Below, piece by piece: positions 2,500 to 10,502 of a stretch of 33,102 bases of DNA. The position numbers and the translations under genes were made by a program. The notes under the pieces were generated by a model. That model was not told the DNA's origin and searched no databases. It was given only the letters and a program-made list of their open reading frames with translations. Origin of the DNA: Archaeoglobi archaeon (GTDB lineage: Archaea; Halobacteriota; Archaeoglobi; Archaeoglobales; Archaeoglobaceae); the NCBI GenBank assembly GCA_029259335.1, contig JAPDIY010000021.1, positions 1-33,102 of the forward strand, in the 5' to 3' direction. Positions within the stretch are counted from its first letter, which is position 1, and each line of letters begins with the position of its first letter.

Positions 2500-4355
2500 C
2501 TGAAGCTGGGGCGGGTAGATAAAAGCTTTGGCACCGGGAGTGGCATGAAGGGCTTACCCTCACACTCCCCCTTGACCCTTTCCACAAGTTCCTCAACTGT
2601 CAGTTCAGCCCTCTTCTGCTCTTTCTGCGTTGACTCCGCCCTGATAGTTACCGTAAGCTTTCCGCTCTGCACCTCCTTCTCTCCAAGCACCGCGATATAA
2701 GGTATCCACTCCGTCTGAGCGTCTCTTATTCTCTTACCCAGAGTCTCATTTCTGTCATCCACATCAACCCTGATACCCTCTCTTTCGATTTTTTCTGCAA
2801 TCTTAACAGCCTCCTCCATATATCTCTCACTGACCGGAATAACTCTTACCTGTGTTGGGCTCAACCAGACGGGGAGCATTGGAAGCTTTCCTTCATCGAG
2901 CATGAACTTTGCCTTTTCAAGCAGAGCGTACATAACCCTCTCTACCGCACCGCTGACTGAGCAGTGCAGGATGTATGGATACTTCTCCTTCCCATCAGCG
3001 TCAACATAGGTGATGTTGTATCTCTCAGCATTCTCAACATCAATCTGGACAGTTGAGAGAGCAGATGCTTTATCAAGAGCATCCACAAAGTTGAATTCAA
3101 ATTTCAGGACAAAGTAGAAGAAGCGGTGATCCCACATTTCGATCAGTATGGGTTTCTGCAAAACATCAACGAGGCTATGCACGAAATCCTTGTTCTCCTC
3201 GTAAAAGTCCCTTGTAACCCTTATAGCCACCTCGTAGTCGGCAGGATCAATTCCTATCTCTTTCAAAACCTCCACCGAAAGCCTGTACTGGCTGAAGAAC
3301 TCCTGCTTTGCCTGCTCCATGTCCTTAGCAATGGTATGCATGTCGGGCATTGTGAAAGCTCTGAGCCTTCTGAGACCAACAAGTTCTCCTCTCTGCTCCT
3401 TTCTGAAGGAATAGCGTGTTAGCTCGTAGATTTTCAGCGGTAAGTTGCGATAGGTAATGGTGGAGCTTGAGAGCATTAAAAACTGGCCAAAGCAGGCAGC
3501 GAAGCGAAGGAAGAACTCCCTCTTGTCTCCTCTGATTATGTACTGCCTCGCCGGAAAGCGCTCAAGATACCTGCGCAGTGTAGGATGGTTGCGGTCGTAC
3601 ATTATTGGAGTCTCTACCTCCATTGCACCATACTCTACACACTTTTTCGTTATGTACTGTTCGAGGAGGGTTTTTATCAGCCTCCCCTTTGGATAGTACC
3701 TTATGTGCCCCGAATCGCTTGCTGGTTCGTAATCAGCTATCTCAAGCCTTCGCATGTACTCGACATGCGGAGGGACAACATCAACAGCCCTTCTCTTCGC
3801 TATCTCGTAGTTCACAAACTTTCTAAGCTTCTCGTGACCCGTAAAATCAAACTTCTCAACCTCAATAAGCTGTTTTTCGGGTGTGAGAATGTACCAGTAA
3901 CTAACTACCTTCTCCTCCTCATCCTTCAGTGCCTTGGTAATCTCTGCCTCAGCTTCACCACCAATCTCCCTTGAAAGCTCGCTAAGTGGGTGACCCTTAC
4001 AGGATATCTTGAATGCCTTGTACCAGCCGAAGGGTGAGCGGTGAACCTCGAAGTCGGAAAGTTCAGCTTCGAGAATCTTTAAAAGCCTGACAGCAGTATC
4101 AGCATCAGCAAGATTTGAAGAAAGATGAGCGTAGGGATAGATCATTATTCTTTCAGTCCCAACCTTCCTTGCAACTTCTCTTATTTCTGCAGCAGCCTTC
4201 CTGGCAACCTCCTCGTCATCTCCCTTTTCAACTGAAGTAAATGCGACGAGAACTTCCTCAACCCTCTCTCCCTTACCATCAAAAGGTTCTGCAAGCTTTG
4301 TTTTCTTCTTCACCTCGTACTCCATGTAATCAGCGTGGATTAGCAGAAGTTTCAT
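2496..4355 (-). CDS. thrS: Threonyl-tRNA synthetase, archaeal type
   Basis: It charges tRNA-Thr with threonine. Residues 1 to about 140 ([15 protein letters not shown]...) are the archaeal editing domain, related to D-Tyr-tRNA deacylase, that removes mischarged serine. The class II core follows, with motif 2 around [21 protein letters not shown]. The probable zinc ligands are in ACFGQF, MPDMH and [12 protein letters not shown]. The C-terminal anticodon-binding domain starts near [19 protein letters not shown]. The length of 619 is normal for this type. It is the first gene of an operon with the small membrane protein behind it. A TATA-like AAAACTTTATTTTT sits 28 bases before the ATG, suggesting a leaderless message. 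Confidence 0.96.
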
Positions 4356-4375
4356 GGCTCAGCCAGTGTGCGGAG

Positions 4376-4389
4376 AAAAATAAAGTTTT
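4376..4389 (-). promoter_or_regulatory. TATA box of thrS
   Basis: AAAACTTTATTTTT on the minus strand is centred about 28 bases before the thrS ATG. Confidence 0.5.
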
Positions 4390-4440
4390 CTGAAAACCCA
4401 CTACCGCCAAGACGATTTTCGATAAGCCCAAAAGAAAAAA

Positions 4441-4452
4441 TTTTTTATATTG
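4441..4452 (+). promoter_or_regulatory. TATA box of the cytochrome b/HdrD-like operon
   Basis: TTTTTTATATTG is the strongest TATA-like element between the divergent thrS and cytochrome b genes. Transcription would start near 4472. That leaves a short leader containing AAGGTGGT (4475-4482) before ATG 4487. Confidence 0.5.
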
Positions 4453-4486
4453 CCTAAGGAAGGATGGAGAAGACAAGGTGGTAAGC

Positions 4487-5452
4487 ATGATATGGCTGCA
4501 AGCTCTGGTTTATTTCTCATTTACAGTCTTTGTACTGGTAGTGCTTGCGAAGGTGGTAAAGTACGCAACAATGCCAATACACCTGAGATGGGAGCTTTAT
4601 CCAGTGCCTCACGAAAAAGGCAGAGCGGAGCATGGAGGTAGCTATTTTGAAGAGGCGGACTGGTGGAAAAAGCCAAGAGAGACTACGCTTATAGGAGAAC
4701 TCAAGGACATGTTCATGGAAATGCTGTTCATAAAAAGAGTTTTCGAGCATAAGCGACCGCTATGGTGGTTCACGTATCCCTTCCATACCGGAATATATCT
4801 GATACTGACATGGTTTGCTCTCGTTTTCATTGGTGCTATCTTTGAAATCGCAGGATTTCCGATTTCTGCTGCATCAGTCCAGCAACTTGGATTTCTCTCG
4901 TGGCTTTCTCCACTGATATACTATCTCACATGGATAGTTGGCGTTCTGGCAATGGCACTTATGCTAATCTTCGGCCTTGGCTTGCTTTTCAGAAGGCTGG
5001 GAGATGAGGGAATGAGGAGCTACAGCGCACCAATTGATTACTTCAACCTGCTCTTCATCATAGCCGTCGTTGCTACCGGAATAGCAGCCTGGCAGTATGA
5101 TGGGGACTTTGCTGTTGCAAGGGCTTTCATGAAGTCGCTGATTACCTTCAGTCCGCTTCCGTCCATAAGCGGTGCTACAATCCTCCACGTGACTCTGCTC
5201 TCGCTTCTCTTCCTGTACTTACCCTTCACGAAGATGACGCACTTCTTTGGAAAGTACTTCACCTACCACAAGGTGCTGTGGGAGGATGAACCCAACCTGA
5301 GGGGTGGAGAGATCGAAAAAGAGGTGAAAAAAGTGCTGGGATACAGAATTAGCTGGAGTGCTCCACACATGAAGCCAGGGATGACGTGGGCCGATGAGGT
5401 GCTGAAGGTCAGCCCGAATGAGATAGATGTATGGAAAAAGGAGGAAAAGTGA
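4487..5452 (+). CDS. Membrane cytochrome b subunit (NarI/DsrM/HdrE-like)
   Basis: This is a membrane-anchored cytochrome b that exchanges electrons with the quinone pool (menaquinone in Archaeoglobus) for the iron-sulfur partner encoded next. Five hydrophobic segments fit the NarI/DsrM fold: one at the N-terminus, then around IYLILTWFALVFIGAIF, LSPLIYYLTWIVGVLAMALM, NLLFIIAVVATGIAAW and ATILHVTLLSLLFLYLPF. Candidate haem b ligands include histidines in YPFHTG, ILHVT and MTHFFG. A polar loop with HLRWELYPVPHE follows segment 1, as in DsrM-type proteins. ATG 4487 has AAGGTGGT just upstream; GTG 4478 in the same frame would add three residues. The stop overlaps the next gene's ribosome binding site, so the two are co-transcribed. 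Which exact complex (Hdr, Hme/Dsr or Tmc type) is not settled. Confidence 0.85.
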   Translation: MIWLQALVYFSFTVFVLVVLAKVVKYATMPIHLRWELYPVPHEKGRAEHGGSYFEEADWWKKPRETTLIGELKDMFMEMLFIKRVFEHKRPLWWFTYPFHTGIYLILTWFALVFIGAIFEIAGFPISAASVQQLGFLSWLSPLIYYLTWIVGVLAMALMLIFGLGLLFRRLGDEGMRSYSAPIDYFNLLFIIAVVATGIAAWQYDGDFAVARAFMKSLITFSPLPSISGATILHVTLLSLLFLYLPFTKMTHFFGKYFTYHKVLWEDEPNLRGGEIEKEVKKVLGYRISWSAPHMKPGMTWADEVLKVSPNEIDVWKKEEK

Positions 5453-5462: not shown

Positions 5463-7073
5463 ATGGCTAAGGAGAATGTGAAGATTGAGGACATTTCAAA
5501 ACCGGTTGAACAGCTTGTGAAGCTTACGCTTGACGATCTCATGCCCCTCCCCCCACCCTACGATAAGCCCGGAGAGGAACCTGAACTGACCGAACCAACA
5601 CCAGACTGGAGAGAGAAATACGTAACGGATCTGGATGGCTACATAGCAATTGATCTACCATGGAAGCCAAAAACAAAAGAAGAGGAAGAAGAGCTGGTCA
5701 GAAAATTCCTGAGCGGATTGCAGAAGCTCCTCGACAAGGAGAACAACTGGACCTTCCTTCAGCCCCTGATGCTCAGTGTCGAATACTGTGCCCGCTGCCA
5801 GACTTGCAGCGATGCATGTCCGATTTATATTTCATCAGGAAGGAAAGAAATTTACCGCCCGACCTACAGGGCAGAGGTGCTGAGAAGGATAATTAAAAAG
5901 TATCTGACGCCTGGGGGAAAGATCAAGGCAAAGTTCACGGGAGATATAGATCTCAACGCAAACACCATTATAAGGCTGGCTGAAGATGCCTACAGATGCA
6001 CTCTATGCAGGAGATGTACTCAGACATGTCCAATTGGCGTTGACAATGGCCTTATAAGCCATGAGATAAGAAAGCTGTTCAGTCAGGAGATGGGAATTGC
6101 ACCAAAAGCTTTGCATGAACTGGGAACTGTTCAGCACTTGCAGAAAGGTTCCTCTACAGGTCTGACTCCGGATGGATTCAAAGACATAATTGAGTTCATA
6201 GAGGATGATATCGAGGAGAAGCTCGGAAGAAGGATAAAGATACCTGTGGACGAGAAGGGTGCAGAAATACTGCTCATTCATAACGCCGGAGAGTATCTTA
6301 GCTGGCCCGAAAACCCCGCAGCATTTGCAATTCTTTTTGAGGAGGCTGGAATAAGCTGGACGTTGAGCAGTGAACAGGTTGCTTACGATGCGGTCAACTA
6401 CGGAGTGTGGTACGACGATGTGCAGCTTGCAAGAGTTGCGACGAAACATACTGAAATCGCAGCCAAACTTGAGGTTGACAAAATTGTTGTCGGAGAGTGT
6501 GGGCATGCCCACAAAGCAATATCGGTTGTAGCAGATAGAGTTTTAGCCGATGAATACAATATACCGAGGGAAAGCTGCATGCCAATACTCTGGGACATAG
6601 TGAGAAAGAAGAAGATCAACTTCGATCCAGAGAAGAACAACTTCCCCGTAACACTCCACGACCCCTGCAACATGGTAAGACTGATGGGTGTGGTCGAGCC
6701 GCAGAGAAAGATACTGCGCGAACTCTGTCCCCAGTTCAGAGAGATGGAACCTCATGGTGTATACAACTACTGCTGCGGTGGAGGGAGCGGTTTCGCAATA
6801 ATGCAATCTATGAACTTCCCTGAGTGGAGAAGTGCTGTTGCGGCAAGAATGAAGTTCAAGCAAACGCTTGAAGCATTCAAAGACTGCATATCGCCTGAGA
6901 TAAACAAATATCTATGCGCTCCGTGCAGCAACTGCAAGGGTGCAATAAGAGACATGCTCGACTATTACAACGCCCCAGAGAAGTGCAGCATATACTATGG
7001 CGGACTTGTCGAGCTTATGGTCAACGCAATGGTTGATCTTGAGGAGCCGTTTATCGAATGGGAGTTCCACTAA
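5463..7073 (+). CDS. HdrD/DsrK-like iron-sulfur protein with CCG domains
   Basis: This is the cytoplasmic catalytic partner of the preceding cytochrome b, of the heterodisulfide reductase D/DsrK/HmeD/TmcB family. Two ferredoxin-type [4Fe-4S] motifs are complete: C109-C112-C115-C119 and C179-C182-C185-C189. Two CCG-type domains follow. The second is intact (HDPC at 402, CCGGG at 437-438, CAPC at 485-488) and can hold the special noncubane [4Fe-4S] cluster. The first lacks its CCG (GVWYDD stands in that region) and keeps only CGHAH. Having one active CCG is typical of DsrK-like proteins rather than true HdrD. The physiological partner could be a heterodisulfide, DsrC-like thiols or another redox carrier. 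The gene overlaps the convergent radical SAM gene by 4 bases (CTAA). Confidence 0.88.
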   Translation: MAKENVKIEDISKPVEQLVKLTLDDLMPLPPPYDKPGEEPELTEPTPDWREKYVTDLDGYIAIDLPWKPKTKEEEEELVRKFLSGLQKLLDKENNWTFLQPLMLSVEYCARCQTCSDACPIYISSGRKEIYRPTYRAEVLRRIIKKYLTPGGKIKAKFTGDIDLNANTIIRLAEDAYRCTLCRRCTQTCPIGVDNGLISHEIRKLFSQEMGIAPKALHELGTVQHLQKGSSTGLTPDGFKDIIEFIEDDIEEKLGRRIKIPVDEKGAEILLIHNAGEYLSWPENPAAFAILFEEAGISWTLSSEQVAYDAVNYGVWYDDVQLARVATKHTEIAAKLEVDKIVVGECGHAHKAISVVADRVLADEYNIPRESCMPILWDIVRKKKINFDPEKNNFPVTLHDPCNMVRLMGVVEPQRKILRELCPQFREMEPHGVYNYCCGGGSGFAIMQSMNFPEWRSAVAARMKFKQTLEAFKDCISPEINKYLCAPCSNCKGAIRDMLDYYNAPEKCSIYYGGLVELMVNAMVDLEEPFIEWEFH

Positions 7074-7957
7074 ATTTTTCTTCTATAATATTTTACGCTA
7101 CCAAATTCAACCTTTTCAAGTTCATCAGCCAGATCTTCAATCCTGAGATTCAGCTTTTTCAAATATCCCGCAAGAACATCTTCTCTCAGCGGATGCACCG
7201 ATGCAATAGATAGTACATCTTCCCTGCTTTTTATAGCAAATTCACCGCTTTCAGCCTCAATCAGAAGCTCAGTGTTAACGTATTTACCAAAGATCCGCTT
7301 TGCTTCGAGTATGAAATCCATGCTTACACCTCTTACCTTCTCTGCTGGGGGACGGGTTGGGATTGCGAGGTAGGCTGTGTGGGGTTTAAGCATACCCAGA
7401 AATTCTGCTATCTTTTCAACACTCTCCAGTGTCGCACAGCTATCAATCAGCATAGTTTCGGTGATAAGGATACCTGTGTATTCTTCAGCAAATCTCAGCA
7501 TTCCATCAAGGATTTTTTCAAGGTTCAAAGACCTGTGAGGACGGTTGATTTTTCTCCACGCCTTCTCCTCAACGGCATCCACCTTCAGTGAAACGAGATC
7601 AGCTTCGAGCAGATCAGCTTTCACATCCTCGCGAAACAGCAGGGAGGAGTTGGTTATCACCGCAACTCTGCCAAGCTCTTTCAACAACTCTATCTCAACA
7701 CCGAGGTTTGCATCGAGAGTCGGTTCTCCGTCAGGGACAAAGGAGATGTAGTCTACCTCACCAACCTCTCCCACTCTTCTCCTGACTTCTTTAAAGATGA
7801 GTTGAGGGTCAAAGAACTCTCTTCTCTCTACTGTGAGCTTATCAGTCCTACCAAGCTGGCAGTAAACGCAGGAATAGCTGCAGTACTTGAAGGGAATGTT
7901 ATTCACTCCGAGGCTTCTTCTGAGTCTTCTGGATGGTACAGGGCCAAATACGTGCAC
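7070..7957 (-). CDS. Radical SAM protein, COG0731-like
   Basis: The SAM-cleaving [4Fe-4S] motif is C26-x3-C30-x2-C33 (KYCSYSCVYCQLG). The N-terminal signature FGPVPSRRLRRSLGVN is typical of the COG0731 group of Fe-S oxidoreductases, distantly related to the wyosine enzyme Tyw1. The barrel follows (YISFVPDGEPTLD, AVITNSSLL, VSLKVDA). The reaction is unknown for this group. The start is GTG 7955-7957. The gene lies 24 bases downstream of the broken TrmB-like regulator on the same strand and has no obvious promoter of its own, so it may be read from that promoter. Its stop shares CTAA with the HdrD-like gene. Confidence 0.82.
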   Translation of the reverse strand: MHVFGPVPSRRLRRSLGVNNIPFKYCSYSCVYCQLGRTDKLTVERREFFDPQLIFKEVRRRVGEVGEVDYISFVPDGEPTLDANLGVEIELLKELGRVAVITNSSLLFREDVKADLLEADLVSLKVDAVEEKAWRKINRPHRSLNLEKILDGMLRFAEEYTGILITETMLIDSCATLESVEKIAEFLGMLKPHTAYLAIPTRPPAEKVRGVSMDFILEAKRIFGKYVNTELLIEAESGEFAIKSREDVLSIASVHPLREDVLAGYLKKLNLRIEDLADELEKVEFGSVKYYRRKI

Positions 7958-7981
7958 AAAAAAATTAACACGGCAGGACAG

Positions 7982-8820
7982 TTAAGTTTTTTGGGTATTA
8001 TCGGTTATCGTCTCGTATTCCCATATCAGATCGAAATACTTCTTCATTCCCGCAACCAAGCTGGGATTTTCGGTCACGGCTGCATCTCGCAGATAAAGGG
8101 GCATCTCCGGATCTTCAACAACAAATATCGCTTTTCCTGTCCTGTAGTCGTAGCTCGGATCAACTATGCTCCCCCTAAGCGGTAAGGATGTTTTGCTAAG
8201 TCTTATTTCCGCTTCTATGTCCGATCTGACCATCTTCATTACCTCAGACTGCACTTTCCTCGTTCTCTCATCAACGAATCTGTGACCGAGAAGTAGGATT
8301 TTTATCTCAACACCTCTTTCCGATGCCTCAATCAACTCTTTTCTAACTTTGGGATAATATTCAAAGCTTCTCGATATCACGTTTATTTCCCTTTTTGATT
8401 CAGCATACATAATCCTCGTCTCCCTCTCACTTGCTTCTCCCACACTAACAACTCTTATAAGCTCCTTAGGACGAAAACCGGAGGGAGAATATACAGAAGC
8501 AAACTCTTTCACGAGTTCTTCCTGCACCTTATCAAAAAACCGATTTTATCTTCATACTCCATCGTTATGTTTCTCCTAAGCCTCTGAGTGATTTCCTCAG
8601 GATTTCTTGCTCTGAATCTGACTGGGCGGGTGGGAATTTTATCAACCAGTCCAAGATCGGCAAGCTGATCCAGAACCTCGTAAACCTTAGCCCTCGGAAC
8701 TCCACTGAGCTCACTAACTTCCGATGCCTTTGCCTCTCCGCATTTTAGCAGTGAAATCAGAGCTTTTGCCTGATAAGCGCTTAAGCCGAGTTTTTCCAAA
8801 ACTCTTTCAACGTCGTCCAT
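7982..8820 (-). pseudogene. TrmB-like transcriptional regulator, split by a frameshift in a T6 run
   Basis: Two overlapping minus-strand frames encode the two halves of one TrmB-family regulator. The first (from ATG 8820, MDDVERVLEKLGLSAYQAKAL) holds the winged helix-turn-helix (SEVSELSGVPRAKVYEVLDQL) and stops at 8509. The second (7982-8527) holds the phospholipase-D-like C-terminal domain (INVISRSFEYYPKV, GVEIKILLLGHR). They join exactly at six T's on the minus strand (8534-8539). One more T, or a ribosomal -1 slip on T-TTT-TTG, restores a continuous helix (EDKIGF, then DKVQEELVKEF) and a protein of about 280 residues. TrmB proteins usually control sugar or central metabolism genes; here the divergent neighbour is a sugar-nucleotide epimerase relic. 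ATG 8820 is preferred because of a well-placed TATA box. Confidence 0.8.
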
Positions 8821-8837
8821 TGTTTCAATTTTGCACC

Positions 8838-8847
8838 TTAAATATTT
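8838..8847 (-). promoter_or_regulatory. TATA box of the TrmB-like gene
   Basis: AAATATTTAA on the minus strand is centred about 22-25 bases before ATG 8820. This supports that start and a nearly leaderless message. Confidence 0.5.
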
Positions 8848-8880
8848 TGCTACTACTGAAAGTAACAACAAAATGGAGGT

Positions 8881-9925
8881 GTGATTGAGGCAATACTGGT
8901 AACAGGTGCGGATGGGTACGTAGGATGGCCAGTTCTTCTTAGGCTTGCAGAAACTTTCTATGATGAAAGAGTGGTGGGAGTGGACAACTTTGCAAGAAGA
9001 AAGTGGGTGGAAGAAATCGGGTCTGTTTCGGCAAACCCCATCCTGTCTCCGGGAGAAAGAAAAAAGAGGGTCGAAGAACTGGGTAGGGTATCTTTTGTTG
9101 AGGGAGATTTGACTTCTAGAGAATTCGTAAATATGCTCATCAGAGTTTATAAGCCCGACACAATTCTACATCTTGCCGCCCAACCTTCAGCCCGTATTCT
9201 TAGATAAGCTGGGAGAAAGCTGTTTACACCCAGTACAACAACGTCTCCACTCTAAACCTTCTTTGGGCTTTAAAGGAAAATAATCTGCTTGAGACCTACT
9301 TTATAGCCGCGACGACAACCGGAGTTTACGGAGCACCGGAGTATCCTATTCCAGAGGGTTTCTACGAGGTTGAATACAAGGGAGGTAGAGATATTGTTCC
9401 ACACCCCCATATGGCAGGCAGCTTCTACCATATGAGCAAGTGCAATGATATTAACAACATGTATCTCGCTCATAAACAGTGGGGACTGCCTGTATCTGAT
9501 GTTAGGGTGGCCATCGTTACAGGCGCAACAACCGATGAAACCAAGGGGAAGATGGCAACACGCTTTGACTTCGACTTCTACTTTGGGGTTGTAACTCACA
9601 GATTCTGCGCGCAGGCTCTGATAGGATACCCAATAACAGTTTATGGAAAGGGTTTACAGGGCAAACCGTTTGTAACGGCAGTTGAAAAGCTACCTGAAGG
9701 TTTTAACATCTCAACACTTGCAGGGGGCGAGAGTCTTTCCGTCTTGGACATCGCAAAACTCGTGAAAAATACTCCGACGTAGATATTGCGCTGATTGAGA
9801 ATCCGAGAAAAAGTGAAACCCACACAAGAAACTTTGAGGCTGATACTGAGGAAGCAAAGCGTCTCATAGGATTTGAGGCTAAGAGGAGAGTTGAGGATGA
9901 AATCAGGCAGCAACTGGGTAAATAG
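8881..9925 (+). pseudogene. Broken NAD-dependent sugar-nucleotide epimerase (UDP-sulfoquinovose synthase-like)
   Basis: Joined across frames, the product has the NAD motif TGADGYVG, ILHLAAQPSA, the ATTTGVYG strand, a YHMSK catalytic motif and the RFDFDFYFGVVTHRFC and YGKGLQ segments typical of SQD1/Agl3-like short-chain dehydrogenases. Lesions seen: a missing C near 9190 (GCCCG where GCCCCG restores the frame); a TAG at 9201-9203 where the restored frame reads PYS-stop-IS (probably a former CAG); and a lost A in the A-run near 9774 (restoring KYSDVDIALIENP). An in-frame loss of about a dozen residues after GLQGKPF is likely, since the family normally has an ISLED-type segment there. The GTG start follows GGAGGT with no spacer, also abnormal. 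The relic ends at TAG 9923-9925. It probably made a sulfosugar nucleotide for lipid or glycan synthesis. Confidence 0.88.
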
Positions 9926-9970
9926 CGAACTTGGAAAGAGTGTTTGGGCAATCTTTGAACAAACCCAAAC

Positions 9971-9980
9971 ACATAAATTC
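9971..9980 (+). promoter_or_regulatory. TATA-like box of the adenosine-specific kinase family gene
   Basis: ACATAAATTC is centred about 26 bases before ATG 10001. Confidence 0.35.
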
Positions 9981-10000
9981 AGCAAAATGAATAAAGCTGC

Positions 10001-10489
10001 ATGAAACTTGAGAGAGTTGAGATTCTGAACCCTGACCTGAAATATCAGATAATTGTCGGTCAGGCAAACTTCTCCGTTTTTACCGTGGATGACCTGTTCA
10101 GGGCTCTGCTAACTGCAGTGCCAGGTATAAAAGTTGCCGTAGCGATGAATGAGGCTGCACCGAAACTTGTAAGAGTGACGGGCAACGACGAAGAGTTGAA
10201 GAAGCTCGCTGCGGAGAACGCACTGAGAATTGCAGCAAGCCACGTTTTTGTCGTTGTAACATCAAATGCTTTCCCGATAAACGTTCTGAATACGATAAAG
10301 CTGCATCCTGCGGTCTGCAACGTATTTGTGGCTTCAGCAAATCCCATTGAGATTATTGTAGCTGAAACAGAGCTTGGAAGAGCTGTGCTTGGAGCGGTTG
10401 ACGGTGCTGCCGTCATAAGGATCGAAAATGATGAAGAGAGAATGCAGAGAAGGGAGCTTTGCGAGAAGCTTGGATACAAGCTCGACTGA
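10001..10489 (+). CDS. Adenosine-specific kinase family protein (COG1839)
   Basis: This 162-residue cytoplasmic protein belongs to the small archaeal/bacterial family called adenosine-specific kinase (DUF355). Visible landmarks are the N-terminal MKLERVEI..N..LKYQIIVGQANF, a central GIKVAVAMNEAAPKLVR, HVFVVVTSNAFPINVLNTIK, and a glycine/alanine-rich stretch near the C-terminus (ELGRAVLGAVDG). The biochemical role rests on limited family evidence. The ATG is well defined. The gene ends 34 bases before leuS, which has its own TATA element. Confidence 0.85.
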   Translation: MKLERVEILNPDLKYQIIVGQANFSVFTVDDLFRALLTAVPGIKVAVAMNEAAPKLVRVTGNDEELKKLAAENALRIAASHVFVVVTSNAFPINVLNTIKLHPAVCNVFVASANPIEIIVAETELGRAVLGAVDGAAVIRIENDEERMQRRELCEKLGYKLD

Positions 10490-10491
10490 CA

Positions 10492-10502
10492 AAATTTTTA
10501 AT
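10492..10502 (+). promoter_or_regulatory. TATA box of leuS
   Basis: AAATTTTTAAT is centred about 27 bases before ATG 10524 and fits a leaderless leuS message. Confidence 0.5.

Follow-up and report, generated by a model that had tools for sequence, protein, structure and literature searches.

A TrmB-family regulator gene broken at a slippery-looking T run in an Archaeoglobi genome: probable recent decay within a redundant nucleotide-sugar cassette

The -1 product of the fucA1 gene of Sulfolobus solfataricus is experimentally proven and sets a precedent for -1 frameshifting in archaea. Its heptamer is A-AAA-AAT, accompanied by tandem rare codons; the region is 100% identical in close relatives, and other Sulfolobales have a full-length gene (PMC8211752). 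The usual -1 slippery motif allows any base except G at its position Z (PMC8211752). Predicted archaeal pseudogene frameshifts, for their part, fall in A/T tracts that resemble slippery sites (van Passel et al. 2007, as described in PMC8211752).

The window (the whole stretch of 33,102 nucleotides that was analysed) corresponds to contig C13 of G000, a draft genome in 101 contigs that is 89% complete. A gene on its minus strand is interrupted at a run of six T's:

7982..8820, minus strand: TrmB-family regulator gene, in two frames from a one-base deficit (N-terminal part 8509-8820, C-terminal part 7982-8539)
8509..8820, minus strand: 0-frame product of 103 amino acids, a winged-HTH DNA-binding domain and short linker, then TGA (Pfam TrmB, PF01978, 9.5e-22)
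7982..8539, minus strand: C-terminal half (PLD-like/TrmB effector-like), in the -1 frame
8534..8539, minus strand: T6 run, which with the next G forms U_UUU_UUG in the upstream frame

The minus strand at the junction is GAA GAT AAA ATC GGT TTT TTG ATA AGG TGC AGG AAG AAC TCG TGA. The 0 frame starts with ATG at 8820 and stops at 8509-8511, and the -1 frame has no stop between the T6 run and the one at 7982. The initial annotation had placed the split at this run, with U_UUU_UUG in frame, and had stated that a -1 slip (or one extra T) leads into the C-terminal domain; both statements hold, the sequence reading GGT TTT TTG and the -1 frame being open as described. The two halves are adjoining parts of one TrmB protein: the tblastn matches cover residues 1-95 and 95-278 and adjoin at the T run. 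(The protein joined across both frames served as a search query only.) A -1 shift at T6 yields a protein that is 83% identical in amino acid sequence to an intact paralogue on contig C64 of the same genome. The TrmB winged HTH lies in the N-terminal half, and the C-terminal half matches Regulator_TrmB and PLDc_2, in both cases below curated cut-offs. This copy has a single lesion, at the very point at which slipping back by one base would restore the frame.

Most likely the interruption reflects ordinary gene decay and not a programmed ribosome slip. The explanation that is preferred here, and regarded as probable, is that a TrmB-family repressor gene was inactivated recently, as part of a nucleotide-sugar cassette that is redundant and decaying. 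The junction is open in all nine other TrmB homologues that were read, and the heptamer is found in none of the eight full-length homologues examined. In G030 the junction is GAT TTT TTT GAC, with seven T's in frame, which appears to represent the ancestral-like state of the run; the C64 paralogue (GGG TTC TTT GAA) and the homologue in G007, Archaeoglobus sp. UBA230 (GGG TTT TAC GAA), are read straight through. Whenever an in-frame T7 (Phe-Phe) loses one T, U_UUU_UUG results automatically, and a -1 slip then mends the frame; a one-base homopolymer loss thus easily imitates a textbook slippery site. Moreover, slippery-type heptamers are common in the window: its intact genes contain 27 in-frame X_XXY_YYZ heptamers (Y = A/T) in 9,674 codons, and another T_TTT_TTG is among them. 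A near-identical locus from another strain was not found among the genomes compared (one per species).

The neighborhood of the gene is also damaged. Upstream of the TrmB start, in the opposite orientation, the window contains:

8845..8870, plus strand: operator-like inverted repeat TTTTGCTAC..GTAACAACA between TrmB and SQD1
8881..9676, plus strand: remnant of a divergent SQD1-like UDP-sulfoquinovose synthase gene
9190-9193, plus strand: SQD1 remnant lesion, -1 in a C run
9201-9203, plus strand: SQD1 remnant lesion, CAG to TAG
~9237-9242, plus strand: SQD1 remnant lesion, one Asn codon lost
9676..9677, plus strand: deletion junction, with ~1.93 kb missing relative to G007 and C64
9677..9925, plus strand: what is left of the third cassette gene, an NAD-dependent epimerase (its 3' end); an A run in it, at 9765-9769, carries a -1 change

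These lesions were called by aligning the window SQD1 with C64, G007 and G030. At 9676/9677 the alignment jumps 1,929 bp (G007 coordinates 2944 to 4874) and SQD1 is fused to the third gene; the rest of SQD1, all of epimerase 2 and most of epimerase 3 are deleted. Comparable damage is not seen in the window's other genes, which have long open frames (9,674 codons, ~29 kb of coding sequence, intact). A homologue of the radical SAM gene at 7070-7957 of the window is interrupted in G005 (C1:492036-492992), with a frame change near 492290 and internal stops. The initial annotation had held that an uninterrupted frame in orthologues, together with further random lesions in this copy, would speak against slippage at the run. 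The alignment with homologues gives the first, and the second holds for the divergent partner but not for TrmB itself.

An error of sequencing or assembly, with a true run of seven T's and an unbroken regulator, is considered unlikely. It would account for a one-base homopolymer difference in a draft genome of 101 contigs and for a TrmB gene that has no second lesion; three of the small cassette lesions, that of TrmB included, are -1 changes in or beside homopolymers. On the other hand, the window has about 38 further A/T runs of at least six bases, none of which breaks a gene, and the partner's nonsense substitution, codon loss and 1.93 kb deletion are not homopolymer errors.

An intact whole module is present in the same genome on C64, with the order TrmB <- -> SQD1-like -> epimerase -> epimerase (NAD-epimerases) and an open TrmB frame. 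In UBA230, which is of the same genus, an intact syntenic module lies between the same DsrK/HmeD-like and AdoK-LeuRS genes, and trees group the window copy with UBA230 at 83-84% ultrafast bootstrap (moderate support); because of this shared position and grouping, it was probably the window copy that was inherited vertically. That C64 might be contamination was considered and is unlikely: the ATPase beside its cassette is 86-97% identical in amino acids to those of congeners (97% to that of congener G003), its flank has 88% DNA identity to G003, and a second copy of this flank was not found in G000. Homology of C64 to G003 begins at 6610, just past the module, which would thus seem to occupy a genus-native but variable place. 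The intact cassette (L042:1-6600) adjoins a flippase-like gene and a PIN-type toxin-antitoxin pair, and G003 has a different gene there; the region is likely a surface-glycan island.

The window cassette (7958-9966) is flanked by two conserved blocks that have different neighbors in congeners, which marks it as a variable insertion site; homology of the window to G002 ends at 7957 and homology to G003 begins at 9967, bracketing the cassette exactly. In G003, glycosyltransferase-like genes lie beside the same AdoK-LeuRS block. The congener GB_MAG2_100 (G002:C58, L048:6871-7005) has retained just ~135 bp from the 3' end of this TrmB gene, in what looks to be an independent loss; this remnant adjoins apparent toxin-antitoxin gene fragments.

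The operator-like inverted repeat has a second copy in G000 at C64:3509-3534. A genome pattern built from the two cassette copies, with two mismatches allowed, occurs at the two cassettes only, so that the local target of the window regulator would be gone. A palindrome of the type TTGTTACCACT..AGTGGTAACAA is present in most homologous intergenic regions across Archaeoglobaceae, often beside a TATA-like AAATATTTT. In Geoglobus (L037), TrmB and SQD1 are apart and a similar palindrome precedes each. The intact protein most likely acts locally, repressing its own gene and a sugar pathway of the UDP-sulfoquinovose type. The intact SQD1-like protein of C64 matches PDB 1qrr at 2.3e-70 and NF041015 end to end; its score of 364 bits is below the 575-bit equivalog cut-off (NCBIfam), so that the assignment of its substrate is tentative.

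Programmed -1 ribosomal frameshifting at U_UUU_UUG, with a hairpin as stimulator (expected 5-9 nt beyond the heptamer), would make two forms of the regulator, one of 103 residues that binds DNA and a full-length one that also senses a ligand. It is quite improbable. The heptamer is in the right frame for it, fucA1 provides the archaeal precedent, and the one lesion of TrmB is just where a -1 slip would act; but Z is G here, outside the usual motif (PMC8211752), the heptamer and the interrupted frame are both absent from the homologues, and the divergent target genes are destroyed. A search for a stem-loop downstream of the heptamer, which the initial annotation had proposed, finds one:

8490..8527, minus strand: predicted 14-bp hairpin that begins 5 nt past the heptamer (-15.7 kcal/mol at 37 °C)

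Its stability at 37 °C would favor programming: with z about -4, it ranks within the most stable 0.4-0.9% when set against 234 coding segments and within the most stable 1% when set against synonymous recodings, hence in about the top 0.5-1% of both. The ranking is a single post hoc test. The homologous segments all fold more weakly, however, and the base pairs show no covariation among homologues beyond controls (shuffles, slides); in these comparisons the hairpin is not conserved. In the folding model it melts near 75-80 °C and is unfolded by 80 °C, and this range is close to that in which known Archaeoglobus grow. Striking as it is at 37 °C, the hairpin is for these reasons rejected as proof of programming. 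No Rfam elements were found within 7000-10500.

The C-terminal half is still conserved, which might also be taken to favor programming, but the dead partner gene is equally conserved. Relative to C64 and G007, TrmB has pN/pS of 0.13-0.15 (both halves similar) and six lineage-unique residues in 267, and the SQD1 remnant has pN/pS of 0.08 and eight lineage-unique residues in 256; with synonymous sites near saturation, only the comparison of TrmB with SQD1 is meaningful, and not the pN/pS values as such. The dN of TrmB is no higher than in intact copies, and the same is true of dead SQD1, so that the test is powerless for decay this recent. Because the dead remnant is conserved to the same degree, the low dN of the TrmB halves is read as recent decay and not as retained function, and conservation of the C-terminal half is rejected as proof of function.

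A further proposal, that the 103-residue DNA-binding product, by itself or together with a smaller share of -1 full-length protein, binds the C64 operator and sets its expression, and so serves as a trans modulator of the paralogue, is very doubtful. Transcriptional slippage on T6, giving mixed mRNAs and some full-length protein, can be all but dismissed: the run is homopolymeric, but six bases are short for efficient slippage and such a broken run is kept in no homologue.

Recent inactivation in a redundant cassette is thus the preferred account, and of the three options offered by the initial annotation (homopolymer error, recent inactivating mutation, programmed frameshifting or slippage) it is the one favored by the intact orthologues and the lesions of the partner; programmed frameshifting is disfavored, even though a stable stem-loop lies 5 nt downstream. 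What is directly observed in this account comprises the lesions, the intact copies, the synteny and the operator-like sites. The ancestral module would have consisted of TrmB divergent from SQD1-epimerase-epimerase, with the operator palindrome in between. At the window locus the bulk of the enzyme genes was lost to a deletion, and what remained was broken by point lesions; the regulator would have lost one T from its Phe-Phe T run, bringing a stop after the DNA-binding domain (no order of events is implied). The T6 lesion is taken to be present in the cell and not just in the assembly. With function supplied by the second, intact module on C64, redundancy presumably relaxed selection on the window cassette. 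Some full-length protein may still come from unprogrammed slipping on U6G. The locus also provides a worked control, in which the conservation of a suspect gene is weighed against that of a certainly dead neighbor. Should frameshifting be demonstrated here after all, it would add a rare example from archaea, in the gene of a transcription regulator.

The module resembles known systems to differing degrees. Likeness to the UDP-sulfoquinovose synthases SQD1 and Agl3 resides in the intact C64 partner, through its 1qrr and NF041015 matches, and the difference is in its 364 bits against the 575-bit cut-off. With the TrmB and TrmBL2 regulators (PDB 5bqt, 5box, 3qph) the regulator has in common the N-terminal winged HTH of Pfam TrmB and a length of about 270 residues; an intact homologue matches TrmBL2 (5bqt, 1.9e-10) over residues 2-179, and also TrmB (3qph). 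It is nevertheless far under the NCBIfam cut-offs for TrmB, TrmBL1 and TrmBL2, and it adjoins an SQD1-like gene with its own operator-like site. The window gene and fucA1 are alike in a slippery heptamer, a downstream stem-loop, a single -1 interruption and full-length homologues elsewhere; fucA1 differs in its heptamer, its tandem rare codons, the full identity of the region in close relatives and a -1 product demonstrated by experiment. The archaeal pseudogenes of van Passel et al. 2007 (via PMC8211752) share with it a slippery-looking frameshift in an A/T homopolymer of an otherwise recognizable gene, and what sets the present locus apart from them is that decay has independent grounds here: the divergent partner is damaged, and a second cassette in the same genome is intact.
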